This document shows, piece by piece, positions 6,119 through 51,607 of a DNA stretch of 64,000 nucleotides (the stretch's first letter is position 1; the number at the start of each line of letters is the position of its first letter). Made by a program: the position numbers and the translations under genes. The DNA comes from Luteococcus japonicus (GTDB lineage: Bacteria > Actinomycetota > Actinomycetes > Propionibacteriales > Propionibacteriaceae), in assembly GCF_003752415.1 (NCBI RefSeq), contig NZ_RKHG01000001.1, forward strand, positions 744,001-808,000, given 5' to 3'. Under the pieces are notes generated by a model, which was not told the DNA's origin, did no database searches, and saw only the letters and a program-made list of their open reading frames with translations.

Positions 6119-6132
6119 CTACATATCAAGCC
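6113..6132. repeat. Right end of Tn554-like unit (inverted repeat)
   Basis: GATCACCTACATATCAAGCC mirrors the left end at 3147-3163 apart from one substitution and a short insertion. IS orfA sequence resumes at the CTTTCTTC beginning at 6132. Confidence 0.6.
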
Positions 6133-6159
6133 TTTCTTCGCGGCGGAGCTCGACCGCCC

Positions 6160-7077
6160 CGGCAGGTACTAGTCGATTTCGTCGACGCCCAGCGTGACCG
6201 GTTCGGGGTCGAGCCGATCTGCAAGGTCTTGCGTGAGCACGGCTACCAGATCGCCCCGAGCAGCTACTACGAGGCCCGCCAACGCAGATCCTCGGCCAGG
6301 GCCCGTCGGGACCAGCAGCTGGTCGAGCTGATGCGCCAGCTGCGCGAAGCCAACCGGTTCCTGACCCGCTTCGGTGCGCGCAAGATGTGGATCTTCCTGC
6401 GCTCGCAAGGCCATGACGTAGCCCGCTGCACCATCGAGCGGCTCTACCGCGCCCAGGGCTGGCAAGGAGCAACACGTCGGCGCAGGTTCAAGCCCATGCC
6501 CTCGGACGGGACACCGCGACCGGCTGACCTGGTCGATCGGGGGTTCTGGGCTGCCCGGCCCAACCGGTTGTGGGTCGCGGACTTCTCCTACGTGCCGACG
6601 TGGTCGGGGATGGTCTACGTCGCGTTCGTGATCGACGTGTTCAGCCGCCAGATCGTGGGCTGGCGCGCTGCCACGCGCATGACCACCGACCTCGTCCTCG
6701 ACGCGCTGGAACAGGCCCTGTGGTCACGCAAACAGCAAGGCATCACCAGCTTCACGGGACTGGTCCACCACACCGACGCCGGGTCCCAGTACGTCAGTTT
6801 TGCCCTCACCCAACGGCTGGTCGAGGCCGGCGTCGATCCGTCGGTCGGGTCGAACCACGACCCCTACGACAATGCCTTGGCCGAGTCCACGATCGGGCTG
6901 TTCAAAGCGGAGCTGATCCGGCCCGAGGGCCCCTGGCGCAATGTCGAGCACGTCGAGCTCGAGACCCTGCGCTGGGTCGACTTCTACAACACGATCCGCC
7001 CCCACGAAGCCCTGGACGACCTCACCCCGATGCAGGCCGAAGACCTCCACTACCATCGGCTCAAGCTCACCGCCTGA
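6160..7077 (+). CDS. IS3-family transposase OrfB (DDE integrase)
   Basis: Catalytic part of the IS3-family transposase. The DDE triad is visible as D in VADFSYVPTW, D in VHHTDAGSQY and E in NALAESTIGLF, with the usual IRPHEALDDLTP near the C-terminus. The frame is -1 relative to orfA and overlaps its end at about 6160, as expected for a programmed frameshift product. An isolated start (TTG 6229) would give 282 residues. Because orfA is split, only OrfB alone could be produced here, so the copy is probably immobile unless helped by another copy. Confidence 0.88.
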   Translation, partial: RQVLVDFVDAQRDRFGVEPICKVLREHGYQIAPSSYYEARQRRSSARARRDQQLVELMRQLREANRFLTRFGARKMWIFLRSQGHDVARCTIERLYRAQGWQGATRRRRFKPMPSDGTPRPADLVDRGFWAARPNRLWVADFSYVPTWSGMVYVAFVIDVFSRQIVGWRAATRMTTDLVLDALEQALWSRKQQGITSFTGLVHHTDAGSQYVSFALTQRLVEAGVDPSVGSNHDPYDNALAESTIGLFKAELIRPEGPWRNVEHVELETLRWVDFYNTIRPHEALDDLTPMQAEDLHYHRLKLTA

Positions 7078-44913: not shown

Positions 44914-45585
44914 TCAGGCAGCCTTCCGAGCGGCGTCGCGGGCCACGTCCAGGCAGCGAACCAAGGCCTGGATGATGGCCGGGTGGTCACCCAGCGGGGC
45001 CGACACCGCATCCGCCCCCGCCTCCACGAGCCGGTCCTGGAAGAATCCGGGAGCCAACAGGTAGCTGGCCACGCCCACCGCTCCCCCTCGTCGCCGGGCA
45101 GCCTCCAGTTCGTCGGGAAGATGCCGCGGAGTCGCCAGTTCCACCCGGACGCCCAGTTCCTGCCAGTGCTGGGCCAGGTCCGCGGCCATACGACGGGCCT
45201 GAGCCCGGCTGTGCGCGTGGGTGGATCCGGCCCACCCGATGATGGTCGTGGGCCATGGTCCGCCCGCCTCCTCCACGCGGGAGGCCAAGGCCTGCAGGAC
45301 GAGGTCCTCGTCGAGGTCCGCCCCCAGGTGCGGCGTCACGCTGACATGGCTGGCCCGGCTGGCGGCCTGCGGGATGTCGACGCGGACATGGTGCCCCTCC
45401 CCCAGGAAGGCGGGAACGATGAGGTCACCGTCGCCGACGACGTCGGCCAGCCGCGGCCCGCAGACATCCACCCAGGCCAGGCGGACCGGCTCGGCCAGCC
45501 GCCAGGACAGCGCTTCGCGGATCCGCTCCACGCAGGCCCGGCCGGTGACCGAGTGAGTGCCGTGGGCGGCAAGGATGATGCTCAT
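44914..45585 (-). CDS. CbiX/SirB-like sirohydrochlorin chelatase
   Basis: A 223-residue class II chelatase-like protein with two CbiX-type half-domains: SIILAAHGTHSVTGRACVE at the N-terminus (metal-binding His8 in LAAHGT) and IIGWAGSTHAHSRAQARRMA in the second. Family members insert iron or cobalt into sirohydrochlorin. Next to a siroheme-dependent sulfite reductase, an iron chelatase (SirB-type) role is likely. ATG 45,585 overlaps the stop of the TauE-type gene. It is the last gene of the operon. Confidence 0.8.
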   Translation of the reverse strand: MSIILAAHGTHSVTGRACVERIREALSWRLAEPVRLAWVDVCGPRLADVVGDGDLIVPAFLGEGHHVRVDIPQAASRASHVSVTPHLGADLDEDLVLQALASRVEEAGGPWPTTIIGWAGSTHAHSRAQARRMAADLAQHWQELGVRVELATPRHLPDELEAARRRGGAVGVASYLLAPGFFQDRLVEAGADAVSAPLGDHPAIIQALVRCLDVARDAARKAA

Positions 45586-46514
45586 CGGGACCCCTCGACA
45601 AGCTCGGGAACCGAGGTGGTGTCCGGAGCCGAGGAGCCGGAGCCAGCAGCCCTCGCATCGGCGCGATGCCGACGAATCCCCAGGACGACCGAAGCGGCCC
45701 ACAATGCCAGCAACACCAGGGTGATCGGGTGGCGCGCCGTCTGCGGCACGTCGAAGCTGGAGAAGACGTGTCCCAGGTTGGTGACGACGATGGCGCCGCC
45801 CACCAGCCCGCCCATGATCTGCGCAGGGATCCGGCTGACCAGCCACGCCGCCAACGGCGCCGCCACCAGGCCGCCGGCCAGCAGCACCAGGACATAGCTG
45901 AGCCGCACCCCCGCGCTGCCCAGGCTGAGCACGAAGCCCAGGGAGGCAGCCACGGAGACAAGGAACTCCGAAGTGTCCACCGAGCCGATCACCGTGCGCG
46001 GCGCAGTCCGCCCCGCACTGACCAAGGCGGTGGTGGAGATGGGCCCCCATCCACCACCACCCGTCGCATCCACGAAACCGCCAACCAGGCCCAAGGGCGC
46101 CAGGAAACGCGACCCGTGTGGGGACACGCGGGCCTCGGAGACGTGGGTGCGGCGAAAGGTGAAGCGCCCCAGGATGAACACGCCGAGCCCCACCAGCAGC
46201 AGCGCCATCACGGGACGAGCCGCCTCGGTGGACAGGTGGGACAGCACCGTGGCTCCGGCAAAGGAACCGATGGCCCCGGGGATCCCCAGACGAAGCACCA
46301 ACCACCAGTCCACATTGCGCAGCTTCATGTGCGCGGCACCGGAGGCGACATTGGTGCCCAGCTCGGCCAGGTGGACCGAGGCGCTGGCCACGGCGGGCGA
46401 CAGCCCACCGGCCAGCAGCACCGACGTCGAGGTGATGCCGTAGCCCATGCCGAGCGAGCCGTCGATCAACTGAGCGACGAGCCCGGCCAGGGCGAGGAAG
46501 ATGAGTTGCTTCAT
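45582..46514 (-). CDS. TauE/SafE-family sulfite/sulfur-compound transporter
   Basis: A 310-residue membrane protein of the TauE/SafE family. The repeated motif LAGLVAQLIDGSLGMGYGIT and the second half GLVGGFVDATGGGGWGPIST are typical; about eight helices are predicted. In this operon it may export excess sulfite or import sulfate. The C-terminal tail (PELVEGSR) is unrelated to the family and short. It is 33 bp after cysN, and overlaps the chelatase by 4 bp. Confidence 0.85.
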   Translation of the reverse strand: MKQLIFLALAGLVAQLIDGSLGMGYGITSTSVLLAGGLSPAVASASVHLAELGTNVASGAAHMKLRNVDWWLVLRLGIPGAIGSFAGATVLSHLSTEAARPVMALLLVGLGVFILGRFTFRRTHVSEARVSPHGSRFLAPLGLVGGFVDATGGGGWGPISTTALVSAGRTAPRTVIGSVDTSEFLVSVAASLGFVLSLGSAGVRLSYVLVLLAGGLVAAPLAAWLVSRIPAQIMGGLVGGAIVVTNLGHVFSSFDVPQTARHPITLVLLALWAASVVLGIRRHRADARAAGSGSSAPDTTSVPELVEGSR

Positions 46515-46547: not shown

Positions 46548-47909
46548 TCAGATGGCCCAGTTGAAGGCGGACTGGGGATGCACGATGCCCGGGGTCGCGG
46601 GATCGTTCACCATGCCGGCGGCCAGTGTGAGCCCCTGCTGCGCGTCGACCAGGAGGAAGGCGCCACCGGGCCGCGAGGTCTGGTAGCTCTCCGCCATCAC
46701 GGGCGAGGCCAGCTTGAGCCGCACCCGGCCGATGTCGTTGAGTTCCAGGTGCTCCACCGGTTCGGGAGTCATCGTGTTGAGGTCCAGACGGCCCTCCAGG
46801 TCCCGGACGATGGCCTGCACGGTACGGGTGGAGTGCTTGAGCAGCACCCGCTGGCCGATCCGCAAGGGAGTGTCCGCCAGCCAGCTGACCATGGCATCCA
46901 CCTCGGTCACCGGTTCCGGGGCGGCATCCGCTGCGGCGATCAGTTCCCCGCGGGTGATGTCGATCTCGTCGGCCAACCGTAGGTTCACCGACTCCCCTGC
47001 CCTTGCCTCGGTGCGGCTGGACTCCTTGCCGGGAGCCGGGGCGATGTCGATCCCCACGATTCTGGTGCGGCGCCCGCTGGGCAGCACCACCACCTCGTCG
47101 CCAACCCGCGCCGTGCCCTGGGCGATCTGCCCGGCGTAGCCGCGGTACTCGACGAATTCCGGGCTGACGGCACCCTGCTGGGGGCGCAGCACGTACTGCA
47201 CGCCGAAACGCAGCGGCAGTTCGTCGCGGCCGGACCCCTCTGACGGGATCGCCTGGGGCTCGATGGTCACCAGCAGCTCGAGCAGGCTGGGGCCGTCGTA
47301 CCAGGGGGTGCGGGAGCTCCGGTCCACGACATTGTCGCCGTCCAGGGCGCTGACCGGGATGGTGGTCAGGCCCTCGACGCCCAGCTCCTTGCCGACCTGC
47401 TGGATGTCCGCGGCGACCTCGTCGTAGCGGTCCTGGCTGAAGTCCACCAGGTCCAGCTTGTTGACGGCCACCACGACGTGCGGCACGCGCAGCAGGGCCG
47501 CGACGGCGAGGTGGCGCCGGGTCTGTTCCAGCACGCCGCGGCGCACGTCCACCAGCAGCACCAGCACGTCGGCCGTGGAGGCGCCCGTGACGGTGTTGCG
47601 GGTGTACTGCACGTGTCCGGGGCAGTCTGCCAGGATGAAGGTGCGCTCGGCGGTGGCGAAGTAGCGGTAGGCGACGTCGATGGTGATGCCCTGCTCGCGT
47701 TCGGCGCGCAGGCCGTCGGTGAGCAGCGCGAGGTCCGTGCCGGTCAGGCCGCGCTCCTTGCTGACCCGCTCCACGGCGTCGAGCTGGTCGGCGAGGATGG
47801 ACTTGGAGTCATAGAGCAGCCGCCCCACCAGGGTGGACTTGCCGTCGTCGACGCTGCCGGCCGTGGCCAGCCGAAGCAGGGTGGCGTTCTCGGTGATCTG
47901 GCTGCTCAT
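46548..47909 (-). CDS. cysN: CysN, sulfate adenylyltransferase GTPase subunit
   Basis: A 453-residue GTPase. The P-loop GSVDDGKST is at 18-26, with LADCPGHVQYT and VNKLDLV for G3/G4. The C-terminal two beta-barrels follow. It drives APS formation with CysD. The length shows there is no fused APS kinase (CysC) domain, so APS is not phosphorylated here. It lies directly behind cysD (1-bp overlap, ATG after the stop). Confidence 0.93.
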   Translation of the reverse strand: MSSQITENATLLRLATAGSVDDGKSTLVGRLLYDSKSILADQLDAVERVSKERGLTGTDLALLTDGLRAEREQGITIDVAYRYFATAERTFILADCPGHVQYTRNTVTGASTADVLVLLVDVRRGVLEQTRRHLAVAALLRVPHVVVAVNKLDLVDFSQDRYDEVAADIQQVGKELGVEGLTTIPVSALDGDNVVDRSSRTPWYDGPSLLELLVTIEPQAIPSEGSGRDELPLRFGVQYVLRPQQGAVSPEFVEYRGYAGQIAQGTARVGDEVVVLPSGRRTRIVGIDIAPAPGKESSRTEARAGESVNLRLADEIDITRGELIAAADAAPEPVTEVDAMVSWLADTPLRIGQRVLLKHSTRTVQAIVRDLEGRLDLNTMTPEPVEHLELNDIGRVRLKLASPVMAESYQTSRPGGAFLLVDAQQGLTLAAGMVNDPATPGIVHPQSAFNWAI

Positions 47910-48805
47910 CAGAAGTAGCCCTCCTTCTTGCGGTCTTCCATGGCGGCTTCGGAGATGCGGTCGTCGGCGCGGGTCGCGCCCCGCTCGGTGAGGGTGGTGG
48001 CGGCAACCTCCACCACGACGTCGGAGACGTCGGTGGCGTCGGACTCCACGGCGCCGGTGCAGGACATGTCACCGACGGTGCGGTAACGCACCTGCTTGGT
48101 GATGACCTGCTCCTCCTCGCGCGGCTGGGAGACGGGCCCCACGGCCAGCCACATCCCGTCGCGGGCGAAGACCTCGCGTTCGTGGGCGTAGTACAGGCTG
48201 GGCAGCTCGATCTGTTCGCGCTCGATGTAGCGCCACACGTCCAGCTCGGTCCAGTTGCTCAGCGGGAAGACCCGCACGTGTTCGCCGGGGCGGTGCCGGG
48301 CGTTGTACAGGTTCCACAGCTCGGGGCGCTGGTTGCGGGGGTCCCACTGGCCGAACTCGTCGCGCAGGCTGACGATGCGCTCCTTGGCCCGCGCCTTCTC
48401 CTCGTCGCGACGTCCACCGCCGTAGACGGCGTCGAAGCGGTTCTCGGCTATGCCGTCCAGCAGGGGCATCGTCTGCAGCGGGTTGCGGGTGCCGTCCCGG
48501 CGCTCGGTGAGGCGGCCGTCGTCGATGTAGTCCTGCACGGACTTGACCACCAGCCGCAGGCCCAGGCGCTCGACGGTCCGGTCCCGGAAGTCGATCACCT
48601 CCGGGAAGTTGTGGCCGGTGTCCACGTGCATCACCGGGAACGGAATGGGTCCCGGCCAGAAGGCCTTGGCGGCCAGGTGCAGCATGACCACGGAGTCCTT
48701 GCCGCCGCTGAACAGCAGCACGGGACGCTCCAGTTCCGCCGTGGTCTCCCGGAAGATGTGGATGGCCTCGGACTCGAGGGCATCGAGATGGTTGAAGGTG
48801 CTCAC
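47909..48805 (-). CDS. cysD: CysD, sulfate adenylyltransferase small subunit
   Basis: A 298-residue ATP-PPase-fold protein that makes APS from ATP and sulfate. The PP-loop is LLFSGGKDSVVMLHLA, followed by HVDTGHNFPEVIDFRD and the GGGRRDEEKARAKER loop. GTG 48,805 overlaps the cysH stop (GTGA); ATG 48,820 would add five residues. It forms a heterodimer with CysN, encoded next. The C-terminus ends KKEGYF, typical of CysD. Confidence 0.93.
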   Translation of the reverse strand: MSTFNHLDALESEAIHIFRETTAELERPVLLFSGGKDSVVMLHLAAKAFWPGPIPFPVMHVDTGHNFPEVIDFRDRTVERLGLRLVVKSVQDYIDDGRLTERRDGTRNPLQTMPLLDGIAENRFDAVYGGGRRDEEKARAKERIVSLRDEFGQWDPRNQRPELWNLYNARHRPGEHVRVFPLSNWTELDVWRYIEREQIELPSLYYAHEREVFARDGMWLAVGPVSQPREEEQVITKQVRYRTVGDMSCTGAVESDATDVSDVVVEVAATTLTERGATRADDRISEAAMEDRKKEGYF

Positions 48806-49590
48806 AGGTGGATCCCGCATTCTGTCTTGGCGAGGCCGGCCCAGCGGCCGGCTCGGGGGTCTTCTCCGGGGGCGACGCGACGCGTGCAGGGGGCGCAGCC
48901 GATCGACGGGTAGCCGTCGGCCAGCAGGGGGTTGACCGGCACGCCGTGGGTGGTGGCGAAGTCCAGCACGTCGTCGAAGCTCCAGGCGGCGATCGGGTTG
49001 AGCTTCACCATCTGGTGGGTCTGGTCCCATTCGACGAGCTGGGCATTGGCGCGCAGCGCATTGTCCTCGCGGCGGATCCCGGTGACCCATGCCTCATAGC
49101 CGCGCAGTGCCCGGGCCAGCGGCTCCACCTTGCGGATCCCGCAGCAGGCCCCCGGGTCACGGTCGTGCAGCTTGGCGCCGTACTGGGCGTCCTGCTCGGC
49201 GACGGTGATCCGCGGCAGCACCTCGACGATGTTCACCGGCCAGGTGCGAGCCAGCTCGTCGCGTGTCTGCAGGGTCTCCGGGAAGTGGTAGCCGGTCTCG
49301 AGGAAGAGCACGTCGACCCCGGGGACGCTCTGGCTGACCAGCGCGGGCAGGATGGTGTCGGCGGCCATCGAGCAGGCGACGGCCAGTTCGGTGCCGAACT
49401 CCTCGGCGGCCCACCCGAGCAGCTCCTCTGCGGGTGCATCGACGAAGCGCTGCTGTGCCTGCTCGACGAGCTGTTGCAGCTCGGCGCTGGAGCGCCGTTC
49501 CCGACGCTCCCTGACCACCGGGGTGGCGGGCTCGGGCGTGTCCCCGAGGTCGATCTCCACTCCGGACAGGACATGGCTGAACAGGCTCAT
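48802..49590 (-). CDS. cysH: APS reductase (assimilatory, [4Fe-4S])
   Basis: A 262-residue thiol-dependent reductase making sulfite. The iron-sulfur ligands C149-C150 (ACCGIRK) and C232-x-x-C235 (GCAPC) are present, and the C-terminal catalytic ECGIH carries Cys258. That pattern belongs to APS reductases, not to the PAPS-specific enterobacterial type. Together with the absence of an APS kinase domain in CysN, this gives a direct APS route. ATG 49,590 overlaps the sulfite reductase stop; there is an ATG at 49,623 that adds unrelated sequence. Confidence 0.9.
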   Translation of the reverse strand: MSLFSHVLSGVEIDLGDTPEPATPVVRERRERRSSAELQQLVEQAQQRFVDAPAEELLGWAAEEFGTELAVACSMAADTILPALVSQSVPGVDVLFLETGYHFPETLQTRDELARTWPVNIVEVLPRITVAEQDAQYGAKLHDRDPGACCGIRKVEPLARALRGYEAWVTGIRREDNALRANAQLVEWDQTHQMVKLNPIAAWSFDDVLDFATTHGVPVNPLLADGYPSIGCAPCTRRVAPGEDPRAGRWAGLAKTECGIHL

Positions 49591-51275
49591 CGCAGGGCCT
49601 CCTCGTCTGCTCGGTGCGCCCACTCGGCAAAGGTCTCGTCGCCCTGGTGGCCGTCGAGGTAGCTGCGCGTGACGCGTTCCACGTAGTCGGGCAGGTCATC
49701 GGCAGTGATCTTCAGTCCACGTACGGTGCGCCCCAGACCGGCCTCGTCGCGCTCCTGGCTGGCCAGGCCGCCGCCCAGGTGCACCTGGAAGGCGAAGTCG
49801 TCGCCGGCCAACTGGCCCTTGAGCCCGATGTCGGCAATCTGGATCCGGGCGCACGAATTGGGGCAGCCGTTGATGTTGAGGCTGATCGGCCGCGGCAGCT
49901 CCACGTCGTCCAGCCGCTGCTCCAGGTCCGTGATGGTGCGCGCGGCCAGGCCCTTGGTCTCGACGAAGGCCAGCTTGCAGTACTCGATGCCGGTGCAGGC
50001 CATCGTGGCGCGGCGGAAGGGCGACGGCTTGGCGGTCAGGCCGAGCTCCTCCATCCCGGCGACGAGCTCTTCCACCTTGCCCGGGTCCACGTCCAGGACC
50101 AGCAACTTCTGGTGTGGGGTGAAGCTGATCCGGCCGGACCCGGCGGCCTCCGCCAGGGCCGCGACGCCGGTCAGGATGGTGCCGGACAGCCGGCCCACCG
50201 TCGGGGCGAAGCCGACGTACTTGCGGCCGTCCTTCTGGTCCCCGACGCCGACGTGGTCGGCACTCCCCACGGCCTTGGCCGGGGCGGGGCCGTCGGGCAG
50301 TTCACGGCCCAAGTACTCCTCCTGCAGCACCTGGCGGAACTTCTCGGGACCCCACTCGGCGAGCAGGAACTTCAGGCGCGCCTTGGTGCGCAGCTTGCGG
50401 TAGCCGTAGTCGCGGAAGATGCCGCAGACGCCGGCCCACACCTCGACGGCCTCCTCCGCGCGGACGAAGACGCCCAGGCGCTCGGCGAGGCGGGGCGTGG
50501 TGGACAGCGCGCCGCCGACCCACAGGTCGTAGCCCGGCCCGAACTCGGGGTGCTCGACGCCGACGAAGGAGATGTCGTTGATCTCGTGCACCACGTCCAA
50601 GCTTGGGTGCCCGGTGATCGCAGTCTTGAACTTGCGGGGCAGGTTGGCGAACTGCTCGTCGCCGATCCACCGCTCGCTGATGGCGCGGGCGGTGGGCGTC
50701 GGGTCGATGATCTCGTCGGCGCTGATCCCGGCGACGGGGCTCATCAGGAAGCCACGCGGGGTGTCGCCGCAGGCCTCGGTGGTGGACAGGCCCACCGACT
50801 CCAGCCGACGCCAGATCTCCGGAACGTCCTCGATGGCGATCCAGTGGTACTGGACGTTCTGTCGGTCCGAGATGTCGGCGGTGTCGCGGGCGAAGTCGGT
50901 GCCGATGCTGCCTAGCACGCGCACCTGGTCGAGGTTGAGCTGCTGGCCGTCGATCCGGATGCGCATCATGAAGTACTTGTCGGACAGCTGTCCGGCGTCC
51001 AGCTTGCTGGTGCTGCGAGCGTCGATGCCGGGCTTGCGCTGGGTGTAGATGCCCAGCCAGCGGAAGCGGCCGTGCAGGTCGTCCTCGGGGACGGAGTCGA
51101 TGCCCTGCTGGGAGTATACGTCGATGATCCGCTGGCGCACGGCCAGCGGGTTCTCCTCGGCCTTGAACTCCTCGTTGTGGTTCAGCGGGGTCTTGCCGTC
51201 CACGGCCCACTGGCCCTTGGACTGGCCCTCGCGGGGCGGACGGACGCGGCTGGGGGCCGCCTGGATGTTGTTCAC
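49587..51275 (-). CDS. sir: Ferredoxin-dependent sulfite reductase (NirA/Sir family)
   Basis: A 562-residue siroheme/[4Fe-4S] enzyme reducing sulfite to sulfide. The cluster cysteines are C427, C433, C471 and C475 (TGIEYC and CPNSC). A duplicated beta-alpha-beta reductase core is present, with DVGVRVQNVQ-like RQNVQYHWI and a final TG-type siroheme site. Nitrite reductases share the fold, but the setting in a sulfate operon indicates sulfite. It starts at GTG 51,275 with GAGGTGAG upstream and is the first large gene of the operon, 137 bp behind the leader peptide. Confidence 0.9.
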   Translation of the reverse strand: MNNIQAAPSRVRPPREGQSKGQWAVDGKTPLNHNEEFKAEENPLAVRQRIIDVYSQQGIDSVPEDDLHGRFRWLGIYTQRKPGIDARSTSKLDAGQLSDKYFMMRIRIDGQQLNLDQVRVLGSIGTDFARDTADISDRQNVQYHWIAIEDVPEIWRRLESVGLSTTEACGDTPRGFLMSPVAGISADEIIDPTPTARAISERWIGDEQFANLPRKFKTAITGHPSLDVVHEINDISFVGVEHPEFGPGYDLWVGGALSTTPRLAERLGVFVRAEEAVEVWAGVCGIFRDYGYRKLRTKARLKFLLAEWGPEKFRQVLQEEYLGRELPDGPAPAKAVGSADHVGVGDQKDGRKYVGFAPTVGRLSGTILTGVAALAEAAGSGRISFTPHQKLLVLDVDPGKVEELVAGMEELGLTAKPSPFRRATMACTGIEYCKLAFVETKGLAARTITDLEQRLDDVELPRPISLNINGCPNSCARIQIADIGLKGQLAGDDFAFQVHLGGGLASQERDEAGLGRTVRGLKITADDLPDYVERVTRSYLDGHQGDETFAEWAHRADEEALR

Positions 51276-51352
51276 GGGAGCTCACCTCTACAAAGGGGTG
51301 GCACGCAACGCACCAGGACGCGGACCTGCGTCTGGGAGTGGGTCAGAAAGAT

Positions 51353-51396
51353 GTCCCGGGCGTCACGCGCCCGGACGAAGTGCCCAGTTCTGGGCA
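51353..51396 (-). promoter_or_regulatory. Attenuator-like hairpins of the sulfur operon
   Basis: On the minus strand, TGCCCAG-AA-CTGGGCA (51,381-51,396) is followed by GTCCGGGCG-CGTGA-CGCCCGGGAC (51,353-51,376) and then ATCTTTCT. The second hairpin resembles an intrinsic terminator. Both lie between the leader peptide and the sulfite reductase, so ribosome position on the leader could choose between them. This is inference. Confidence 0.55.
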
Positions 51397-51411
51397 GGGG
51401 TCAGACGCGGA

Positions 51412-51498
51412 TCAGGACATCTGACACATGCTGCCGTTGATGCGCAGCAAATCCACGTGGCGACGGGCCACGAGGTAGAGCGCAACGGTCTTCTGCAT
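51412..51498 (-). CDS. Cysteine-containing leader peptide
   Basis: A 28-residue reading frame (ATG 51,498, stop 51,412) with the family core 'RRHVDLLR' at residues 12-19 and a single Cys at residue 25 near the end. Short proteins of this pattern stand upstream of sulfur-assimilation operons in many actinobacteria and are annotated as putative leader peptides. They can act through ribosome stalling when cysteine is short. Here a hairpin pair lies directly downstream, and the operon is sulfate reduction, so attenuation by cysteine is likely. Too short for the usual gene finders. Confidence 0.8.
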   Translation of the reverse strand: MQKTVALYLVARRHVDLLRINGSMCQMS

Positions 51499-51583
51499 GC
51501 CGTGAATTCAAGCACACGGCCTCGCGAATCCCAAGCCCGTCTCGAATTCTGGGAGTCCACCCCACGAGACGTGACATGCAAAA

Positions 51584-51607
51584 GCCCCGGACATCGTTGT
51601 CCGGGGC
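51584..51607 (-). terminator. Terminator behind the small membrane protein gene
   Basis: GCCCCGGACA, a 4-base loop, and TGTCCGGGGC form a 10-bp perfect stem. On the minus strand it is followed by TTTTGCATG. It ends transcription of 51,641-51,955 before the sulfur operon starts. Confidence 0.82.

Follow-up and report, generated by a model that had tools for sequence, protein, structure and literature searches.

A probable cysteine-sensing leader with a single UGU codon ahead of the sulfate-reduction operon of Luteococcus japonicus

The sulfate-reduction operon of Luteococcus japonicus is preceded by a short reading frame with one cysteine codon close to its end, which raises the question of whether a single codon could report the supply of cysteine to the genes behind it. 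The window analysed here (the whole stretch of 64,000 nucleotides, contig NZ_RKHG01000001.1, positions 744,001 to 808,000 of the forward strand) carries the following frames at this locus.

51412 to 51498, minus strand: leader ORF of 28 amino acids, MQKTVALYLVARRHVDLLRINGSMCQMS, with its stop TGA at 51414-51412
51424 to 51426, minus strand: putative sensor Cys codon TGT (residue 25), next base C (UGU-Y)
49587 to 51275, minus strand: sir, nitrite/sulfite reductase family, GTG start (Pfam NIR_SIR, 1e-60)
48802 to 49623, minus strand: cysH, PAPS/APS reductase (NF002537, 258 bits, above cut-off)
47909 to 48799, minus strand: cysD (TIGR02039, 454 bits, above cut-off; start estimated from the model's beginning)
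46548 to 47909, minus strand: cysN (TIGR02034, 508 bits, above cut-off)
45582 to 46514, minus strand: TauE/SafE-like membrane protein (PRK10621, a family we take to be TauE; match below cut-off only)

The sir gene reached no equivalog cut-off in the NCBIfam scan, and cbiX, a putative member of the same operon, was recognised as a reading frame only. A model working from the letters alone (the sequence-only reading) had described a 28-residue frame with Cys25 upstream of a sulfite reductase. This frame is present, on the minus strand, which that reading did not give, and its placement is borne out as well: three codons and the UGA follow the UGU, and the NIR_SIR gene begins, with its GTG at 51275, 136 nt past the leader stop. 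An Rfam scan at the leader returned nothing relevant, all matches lying far below gathering scores. Elsewhere in the window, positions 6129 to 6258 of the plus strand match the ALIL pseudoknot (RF01497) with 72 bits, where the gathering score is 50; this element is usually a frameshift signal of insertion sequences.

The leader is not a chance ORF, and its family is already known, because it matches the NCBIfam model NF042934 ('putative leader peptide') above cut-off (29.5 bits, E 3.9e-7, cut-off 27). The 19-position profile covers residues 9-25, that is, the motif through the Cys. A six-frame search of the organism's own 3.45 Mb genome gave the leader (28.1 bits) as the sole NF042934 match above cut-off, with five further matches all below 15 bits. 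The window leader failed the models of the mycobacterial leaders Ms5788A and Ms4527A (NF042933 and NF042936; 13.9 and 22.9 bits against a cut-off of 45), the names of which we take to belong to the leaders of Canestrari 2020. It shares with these leaders a VDLxR core and a Cys near the stop, but they are Cys-rich and it has one Cys. L116, a mycobacterial leader of the Ms5788A type, passes both Ms5788A and NF042934, thereby linking the window leader to the poly-Cys branch, which is reported as cysteine-responsive (Canestrari 2020, as cited in the available parts of PMC9094748 and PMC13236596, and referenced in that of PMC7790235).

At E 1e-4, NF042934 has matches in at least 233 of 394 class genomes, with at least 11 in the richest genome. 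Within the bacterial family, at least 58 of 197 genomes have matches at E 0.01 and at least 29 of 197 above cut-off; the family and class counts are lower bounds, the respective searches having been capped at 43 and 22 scored candidates for each genome. A phylum-wide draw yielded matches in 12 of 198 genomes, all 12 being the own genome or members of the same class. Fourteen control genomes gave no NF042934 match in the family, class and phylum searches; ten controls matched in the own-genome search at E 10, none of them above cut-off.

Loci were fetched for part of the NF042934 matches listed in the family and class searches. The motif search was entered by 178 loci, and 168 leaders were kept: eight loci were negative for the motif regular expression (L098, L174, L207, L223, L224, L232, L237 and L243, although L098 has a frame resembling a leader but longer in the tail) and two were overlapping duplicates (L228, L230). 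Of these leaders, 152 come from NF042934 matches, not all of which reach the curated cut-off, and 16 come from named sir loci; together they form 108 clusters at 85% of 66 nt; these clusters share ancestry and are not independent trials. A motif peptide was found upstream in 16 of the 80 named sir loci, including all 12 Streptomyces loci listed; five of the 80 have less than about 560 nt upstream, where a leader could be cut off, and some others carry Cys-tailed frames without the motif. The leader of L004, among the 16 from sir loci, had no NCBIfam match at E 1e-4. In the genome drawn from the same genus (G020, L250; 79% complete), sir is present at 69% identity with no recognisable leader upstream. 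The leader may thus be gained or lost even inside a genus. Its absence there counts against an attenuator and makes a comparison of hairpins in close relatives impossible.

Leader positions were numbered from the H/A place of [HA]VDLxR, which is H in 76, A in 24 and W, Y or P in 8 of the 108 clusters. R(-2) and D2 occur in all 108, L3 in 104 and R5 in 105, and a Cys stands exactly at +11 in 104. Arg(-2) is encoded by CGG, CGC, CGT, CGA or AGG, so the residue is conserved there and not the bases. The Cys place lies 1-4 codons upstream of the stop in 93 of 108 clusters, with tails ranging from 0 to 11 codons; since both the tail and the candidate starts vary, the fixed part of the leader is the motif with its Cys.

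The Cys codon at +11 is UGU in 102 of 104 clusters (101/102 without the two clusters from named sir loci). Cys codons of the downstream genes, by comparison, are UGU in 13 and UGC in 231 cases when ORFs are picked by coding score (34 and 243 in an earlier count on the longest ORFs), and elsewhere in these leaders Cys is mostly UGC (33/35 at +4, 22/26 at +9). The base after the +11 codon is a pyrimidine in 105/108 clusters, versus 75/244 after Cys codons of downstream genes. Expressed as Kullback-Leibler divergence (KL) from background, the synonymous constraint amounts to 3.89 bits at the +11 Cys and to at most 0.83 at other positions. A codon-blind pattern, R-x-HVDL-x-R-x5-C, applied to 236 genomes, matched with TGT in 117 of these genomes and with TGC in four, one of the four TGC matches containing an in-frame stop; this pattern misses the window leader, whose leucine is TTG. 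Exceptions to the codon rule are L064 and L199 (UGC at +11), L112 and L213 (UGC at +12), L209 (Cys shifted, UGU-U) and L247 (Gly in place of Cys). The single Cys of the leaders is thus not arbitrary, and the earlier suggestion that the one near-terminal Cys codon acts as the sensor gains from its being the most constrained synonymous choice in the leaders of the family.

One Cys between five residues before H and the stop is the arrangement in 44 of the 76 H-type clusters. The poly-Cys leaders of the mycobacterial type have TGT at +11, most of them with additional TGT codons. Cys-tailed frames before sir that lack HVDL also carry UGU-Y, and some UGC (L003, L018, L022, L039, L043, L059, L251), and that of L026 has two TGT-G; these frames were chosen by residue pattern and are candidate leaders only. 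A second synonymous bias is seen at +8, where Ser is AGC in 55 of 71 leaders versus about 25% in the background.

The genes next to the 168 leaders, as predicted here, fall into 30 clusters, of which 20 were scanned with Pfam through representatives; the majority of the 20 are sulfur genes. The largest is sir (42, a figure that includes the 16 loci chosen for being sir loci), and the others include rhodanese (32), DUF4395 (13), SDF symporter (12), cysteine dioxygenase type I (10), a PALP enzyme (8), PAPS reductase (6) and sulfatase (5). Small clusters contain luciferase-like monooxygenases, substrate-binding proteins, a transporter permease, TauE, Sulf_transp and CbiX, as well as ThiS, GST and ROK, the last few of which are not plainly sulfur genes. 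Membership in NF042934 together with mostly sulfur genes downstream makes the proposed cysteine-sensing function of the leader before sir probable. Judged by sequence comparison, cysteine control of sir is likely, and the window leader is a member of a large family, named before, of probable cysteine-sensing leaders.

Cysteine dioxygenase, a cysteine-degrading enzyme by its name, stands behind L095, L097, L099, L100, L103, L106-L109 and L210, and these 10 leaders fit poorly with induction by cysteine shortage. The sodium:dicarboxylate symporter family gene follows L089, L090, L093, L114, L179, L211, L212, L216-L218, L221 and L222, several of which carry W in the H place; as a cystine importer the symporter would make sense. 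Back-to-back HVDL-UGU motifs on opposite strands, 80-155 nt apart, occur in G266 C172, G326 C520, G336 C29, G346 C71, G356 C103 and G217 C251, suggestive of a single short region in control of a divergent pair of sulfur operons.

Between the sensor codon and sir, the RNA of the window contains several candidate elements.

51400 to 51425, minus strand: leader-end hairpin GUCAGAUGU/GCGUCUGAC, overlapping the sensor codon, with the stop codon in its loop (folding)
51381 to 51396, minus strand: hairpin with stem GCCCAG/CUGGGC (folding)
51345 to 51376, minus strand: terminator-like hairpin, stem about 51376-51353, tail ACATCTTTCT, weak U-tract CTTTCT (terminator scan, -16.0 kcal/mol)
51276 to 51411, minus strand: gap from the leader stop to sir, C-G 0.15 in its first 80 nt; candidate Rho-loading stretch

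Folding of 51430-51345 gives -38.8 kcal/mol (z -3.19); this stretch can form one long helix, in which the leader-end segment AGAUGUCC pairs with GGGACAUCU, or two separate hairpins when the leader end is removed. The pairing of the leader end has a z of -3.36 (best of three offsets), and the stretch from UGU to +45 has the lowest z among the 108 leaders (-4.6). The sequence-only reading had placed two competing hairpins here. Both hairpins, 51396-51381 and 51376-51353, exist, but they lie side by side and compete only with the leader end and not with each other. These folds would allow classical intrinsic attenuation in the window, in which the long leader-end helix, ending next to UUUCU, would be the terminator, and the two hairpins would form instead when a ribosome stalls at UGU. 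In addition to the z scores of -3.19 and -3.36 and the terminator-like scan match, a similar stem followed by TTTCGTCGTTTCT in L004, Nigerium massiliense, speaks for this explanation; the U-tract is poor, however, and the sequence is ambiguous on which fold would be the terminator. A hairpin switch in the window itself is possible, and as the explanation of the locus we consider intrinsic attenuation somewhat unlikely.

Such a switch finds little support across the family. Terminator-like hairpins in the 108 leaders number 16, against 13.6 in shuffled sequences, at -10 kcal/mol, 13 against 7.6 at -12 kcal/mol and 5 against 2.7 at -15 kcal/mol, so that intrinsic terminators, hardly enriched, were rejected as a family rule, and the idea of a competing terminator and antiterminator is not supported at this level. 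The mutually exclusive folds of trp-type attenuators, a possible arrangement in the window, show likewise hardly any enrichment over the family. On average the leader end has weak long-range pairing (mean z -0.30 for the best offset, 36; t -2.5), and local folding is slightly above chance in windows starting 30-75 nt past the H codon (mean z about -0.5). The sequence-only reading had itself named unconserved hairpins beside a conserved peptide as the outcome that would speak against it, and the family comes close to this picture, with hairpins near shuffle level and a nearly invariant motif. Two further candidates were discarded: a 4-bp CGAC/GUCG helix inside the motif, whose bases 5 and 37 vary without mutual compensation, and reinitiation from the leader stop to the gene, which is unlikely over a median predicted gap of 123 nt (108 clusters).

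A feature that the family does share is an excess of C over G behind the leader. C-G in the first 80 nt past the leader stop is 0.167 in the family versus 0.012 in 228 control gene flanks. The excess in the gap is greater than that in the gene in 89 of 95 loci, a count made on 95 of the 108 clusters with the last 12 nt excluded and with the window's sir start taken too late; the 80-nt figure is independent of this. The C-rich stretch is a composition signal and thus a candidate rather than a mapped rut site.

Two elements upstream of the leader bear on where its transcript begins.

51506 to 51534, minus strand: candidate promoter for a leaderless mRNA, TTGGGA at 51534-51529, a 17-nt spacer and TTGAAT at 51511-51506 (by eye)
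51580 to 51607, minus strand: intrinsic-terminator-like hairpin GCCCCGGAC/GTCCGGGGC followed by TTTT (by eye; absent from the terminator scan)

The hairpin would end a minus-strand transcript arriving from upstream, so the leader needs a promoter of its own. The candidate TTGAAT ends 7 nt before the leader ATG, which is the right place but not the TANNNT consensus, and a stricter sigma-70 scan of the window found no promoter at the leader; both facts count against a leaderless attenuator. In the relatives, 50 of the 108 leaders have TANNNT 5-8 nt upstream of a start codon that is in frame, whereas none of the 88 and none of the 83 start codons in the two other frames are so preceded.

We infer that the locus is rather probably an attenuator, leaderless and ribosome-mediated, by which the sulfate-reduction operon would respond to the supply of Cys-tRNA through one deliberately weak sensor codon. 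Transcription would begin at or beside the leader ATG, and a ribosome would translate the leader at once. With ample Cys-tRNA, it would pass the single UGU, read three more codons, end at UGA and depart, leaving the C-rich RNA behind it free, and transcription would stop before sir. With scarce Cys-tRNA, it would wait at UGU, cover the RNA through the stop and block the terminating event, and sir-cysHDN would be made. Termination in most of the family would probably be by Rho, in the manner of tnaC, and in the window the intrinsic hairpin may also act. Bacterial tRNA-Cys, with anticodon GCA, must read UGU by wobble, and a pyrimidine 3' of a codon is a poor 3' context. If these rules hold, a UGU read by wobble and followed by a pyrimidine would be the slowest request for Cys-tRNA, and a further slowing could come from inside the tunnel, through the conserved residues that precede the Cys by 6 to 13 positions. 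An extension that we hold with more doubt than belief is that RxHVDLxR is a nascent-chain pausing element, lying in the tunnel at the very moment when UGU enters the A site; a single weak UGU-Y would then suffice for sensing Cys-tRNA, and leaders without the motif would compensate with several Cys codons.

Several observations count against the attenuator. Classical attenuators have repeated sensor codons, in contrast to the single Cys codon here, and where Cys codons occur at +4 and +9, ahead of the sensor, they should stall the ribosome too. The available part of PMC13236596 ascribes the regulation of mycobacterial cysteine genes to attenuation of translation, not of transcription, which argues for a ribosome stalled at UGU opening a structure that hides the Shine-Dalgarno (SD) site of sir. 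SD regions are indeed mostly paired (mean probability of being unpaired 0.24 over 83 loci, 0.28 with the leader masked to UGU), and masking shifts this probability by more than 0.2 in 13 loci, upward in 11 of them and downward in two. The gain is small, however, was computed without a shuffled control on start sites that are our own predictions, and reaches only 0.10 to 0.24 in the window; we regard translational attenuation as unlikely.

The conservation of R(-2), D2, L3 and R5 at fixed spacing to the Cys, with Arg(-2) kept as a residue, would also suit a strict arrest peptide, in which cysteine or some other sulfur metabolite would be bound by the nascent chain within the ribosome tunnel, the choice of codon being of secondary importance. 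This appears distinctly improbable, because the strongest constraint is synonymous (UGU over UGC, the 3.89 bits given above) and is left unexplained by a sensor working purely at the peptide level. Alternatively, UGUY might be conserved as an RNA or DNA signal, such as a pause site or a site for a protein or RNase, and not as a codon. The constraint does extend one base past the codon, and the AGC bias of Ser at +8 points to base-level constraint in codons 8-12; but the frames without HVDL also use UGU-Y as Cys codons, and UGUY, rejected as a pairing element, is paired no more often than with shuffled downstream RNA. With pairing at shuffle level the codon is the likelier object of selection than base pairing, and we give the signal explanation a very slim chance.

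Trp-type attenuators have repeated sensor codons, unlike the window leader with its one Cys codon. Arrest in E. coli tnaC requires tryptophan excess and the stop codon; the likeness is that Rho would be kept from loading by a ribosome that sits near the leader stop, just ahead of the loading stretch, and the difference is that the proposal for the window involves a shortage of Cys-tRNA at a sense codon. Candidate cys leader peptides were predicted in Mycobacterium, P. acnes and B. longum by Seliverstov 2005 (PMC1262725), which also names tnaC and suggests Rho. In the available part of that paper, these leaders likewise have Cys codons near the stop before cys genes and no conserved terminator; unlike the window leader they have runs of Cys codons, and neither the HVDL motif nor the UGU rule is described there. 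Cys-rich leaderless uORFs appear in the available text of Shell 2015 (PMC4633059). The Rhodobacterales uORFC-8-2 before cysS (PMC8632094, as far as its available text goes) is similar as a uORF with Cys codons for which ribosome-mediated attenuation is proposed, but has two tandem Cys codons, mostly UGC, and an intrinsic-terminator U-run in all members. The accessible portion of the S. lividans reannotation (PMC8079986) gives eight leader peptides, none with VDLxR, the metL leader ending in three Cys.

As consulted here, NF042934 (type cis_reg_atten), whose profile the window leader passes, amounts to a name and a profile, with no description of codon or RNA features. The literature searched held no account of the spacing of the HVDL motif or of the UGU-Y rule, although Canestrari 2020, among others, could contain them. 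What is new here, as far as that literature goes, is the fixed Cys spacing and the UGU-Y codon rule; the leader family itself was already known. Matches to the family occur in over half of the sampled class genomes. In the literature searched it is treated for mycobacteria and a few relatives only. With the UGU-Y rule, the working of the sensor can be probed by a synonymous change of one base, and such leaders can be found by a simple pattern in the DNA. If the reading of the motif as a pausing element is true, the family would combine attenuator and arrest peptide in one hybrid found throughout the class, in which codon choice and peptide are tuned together.
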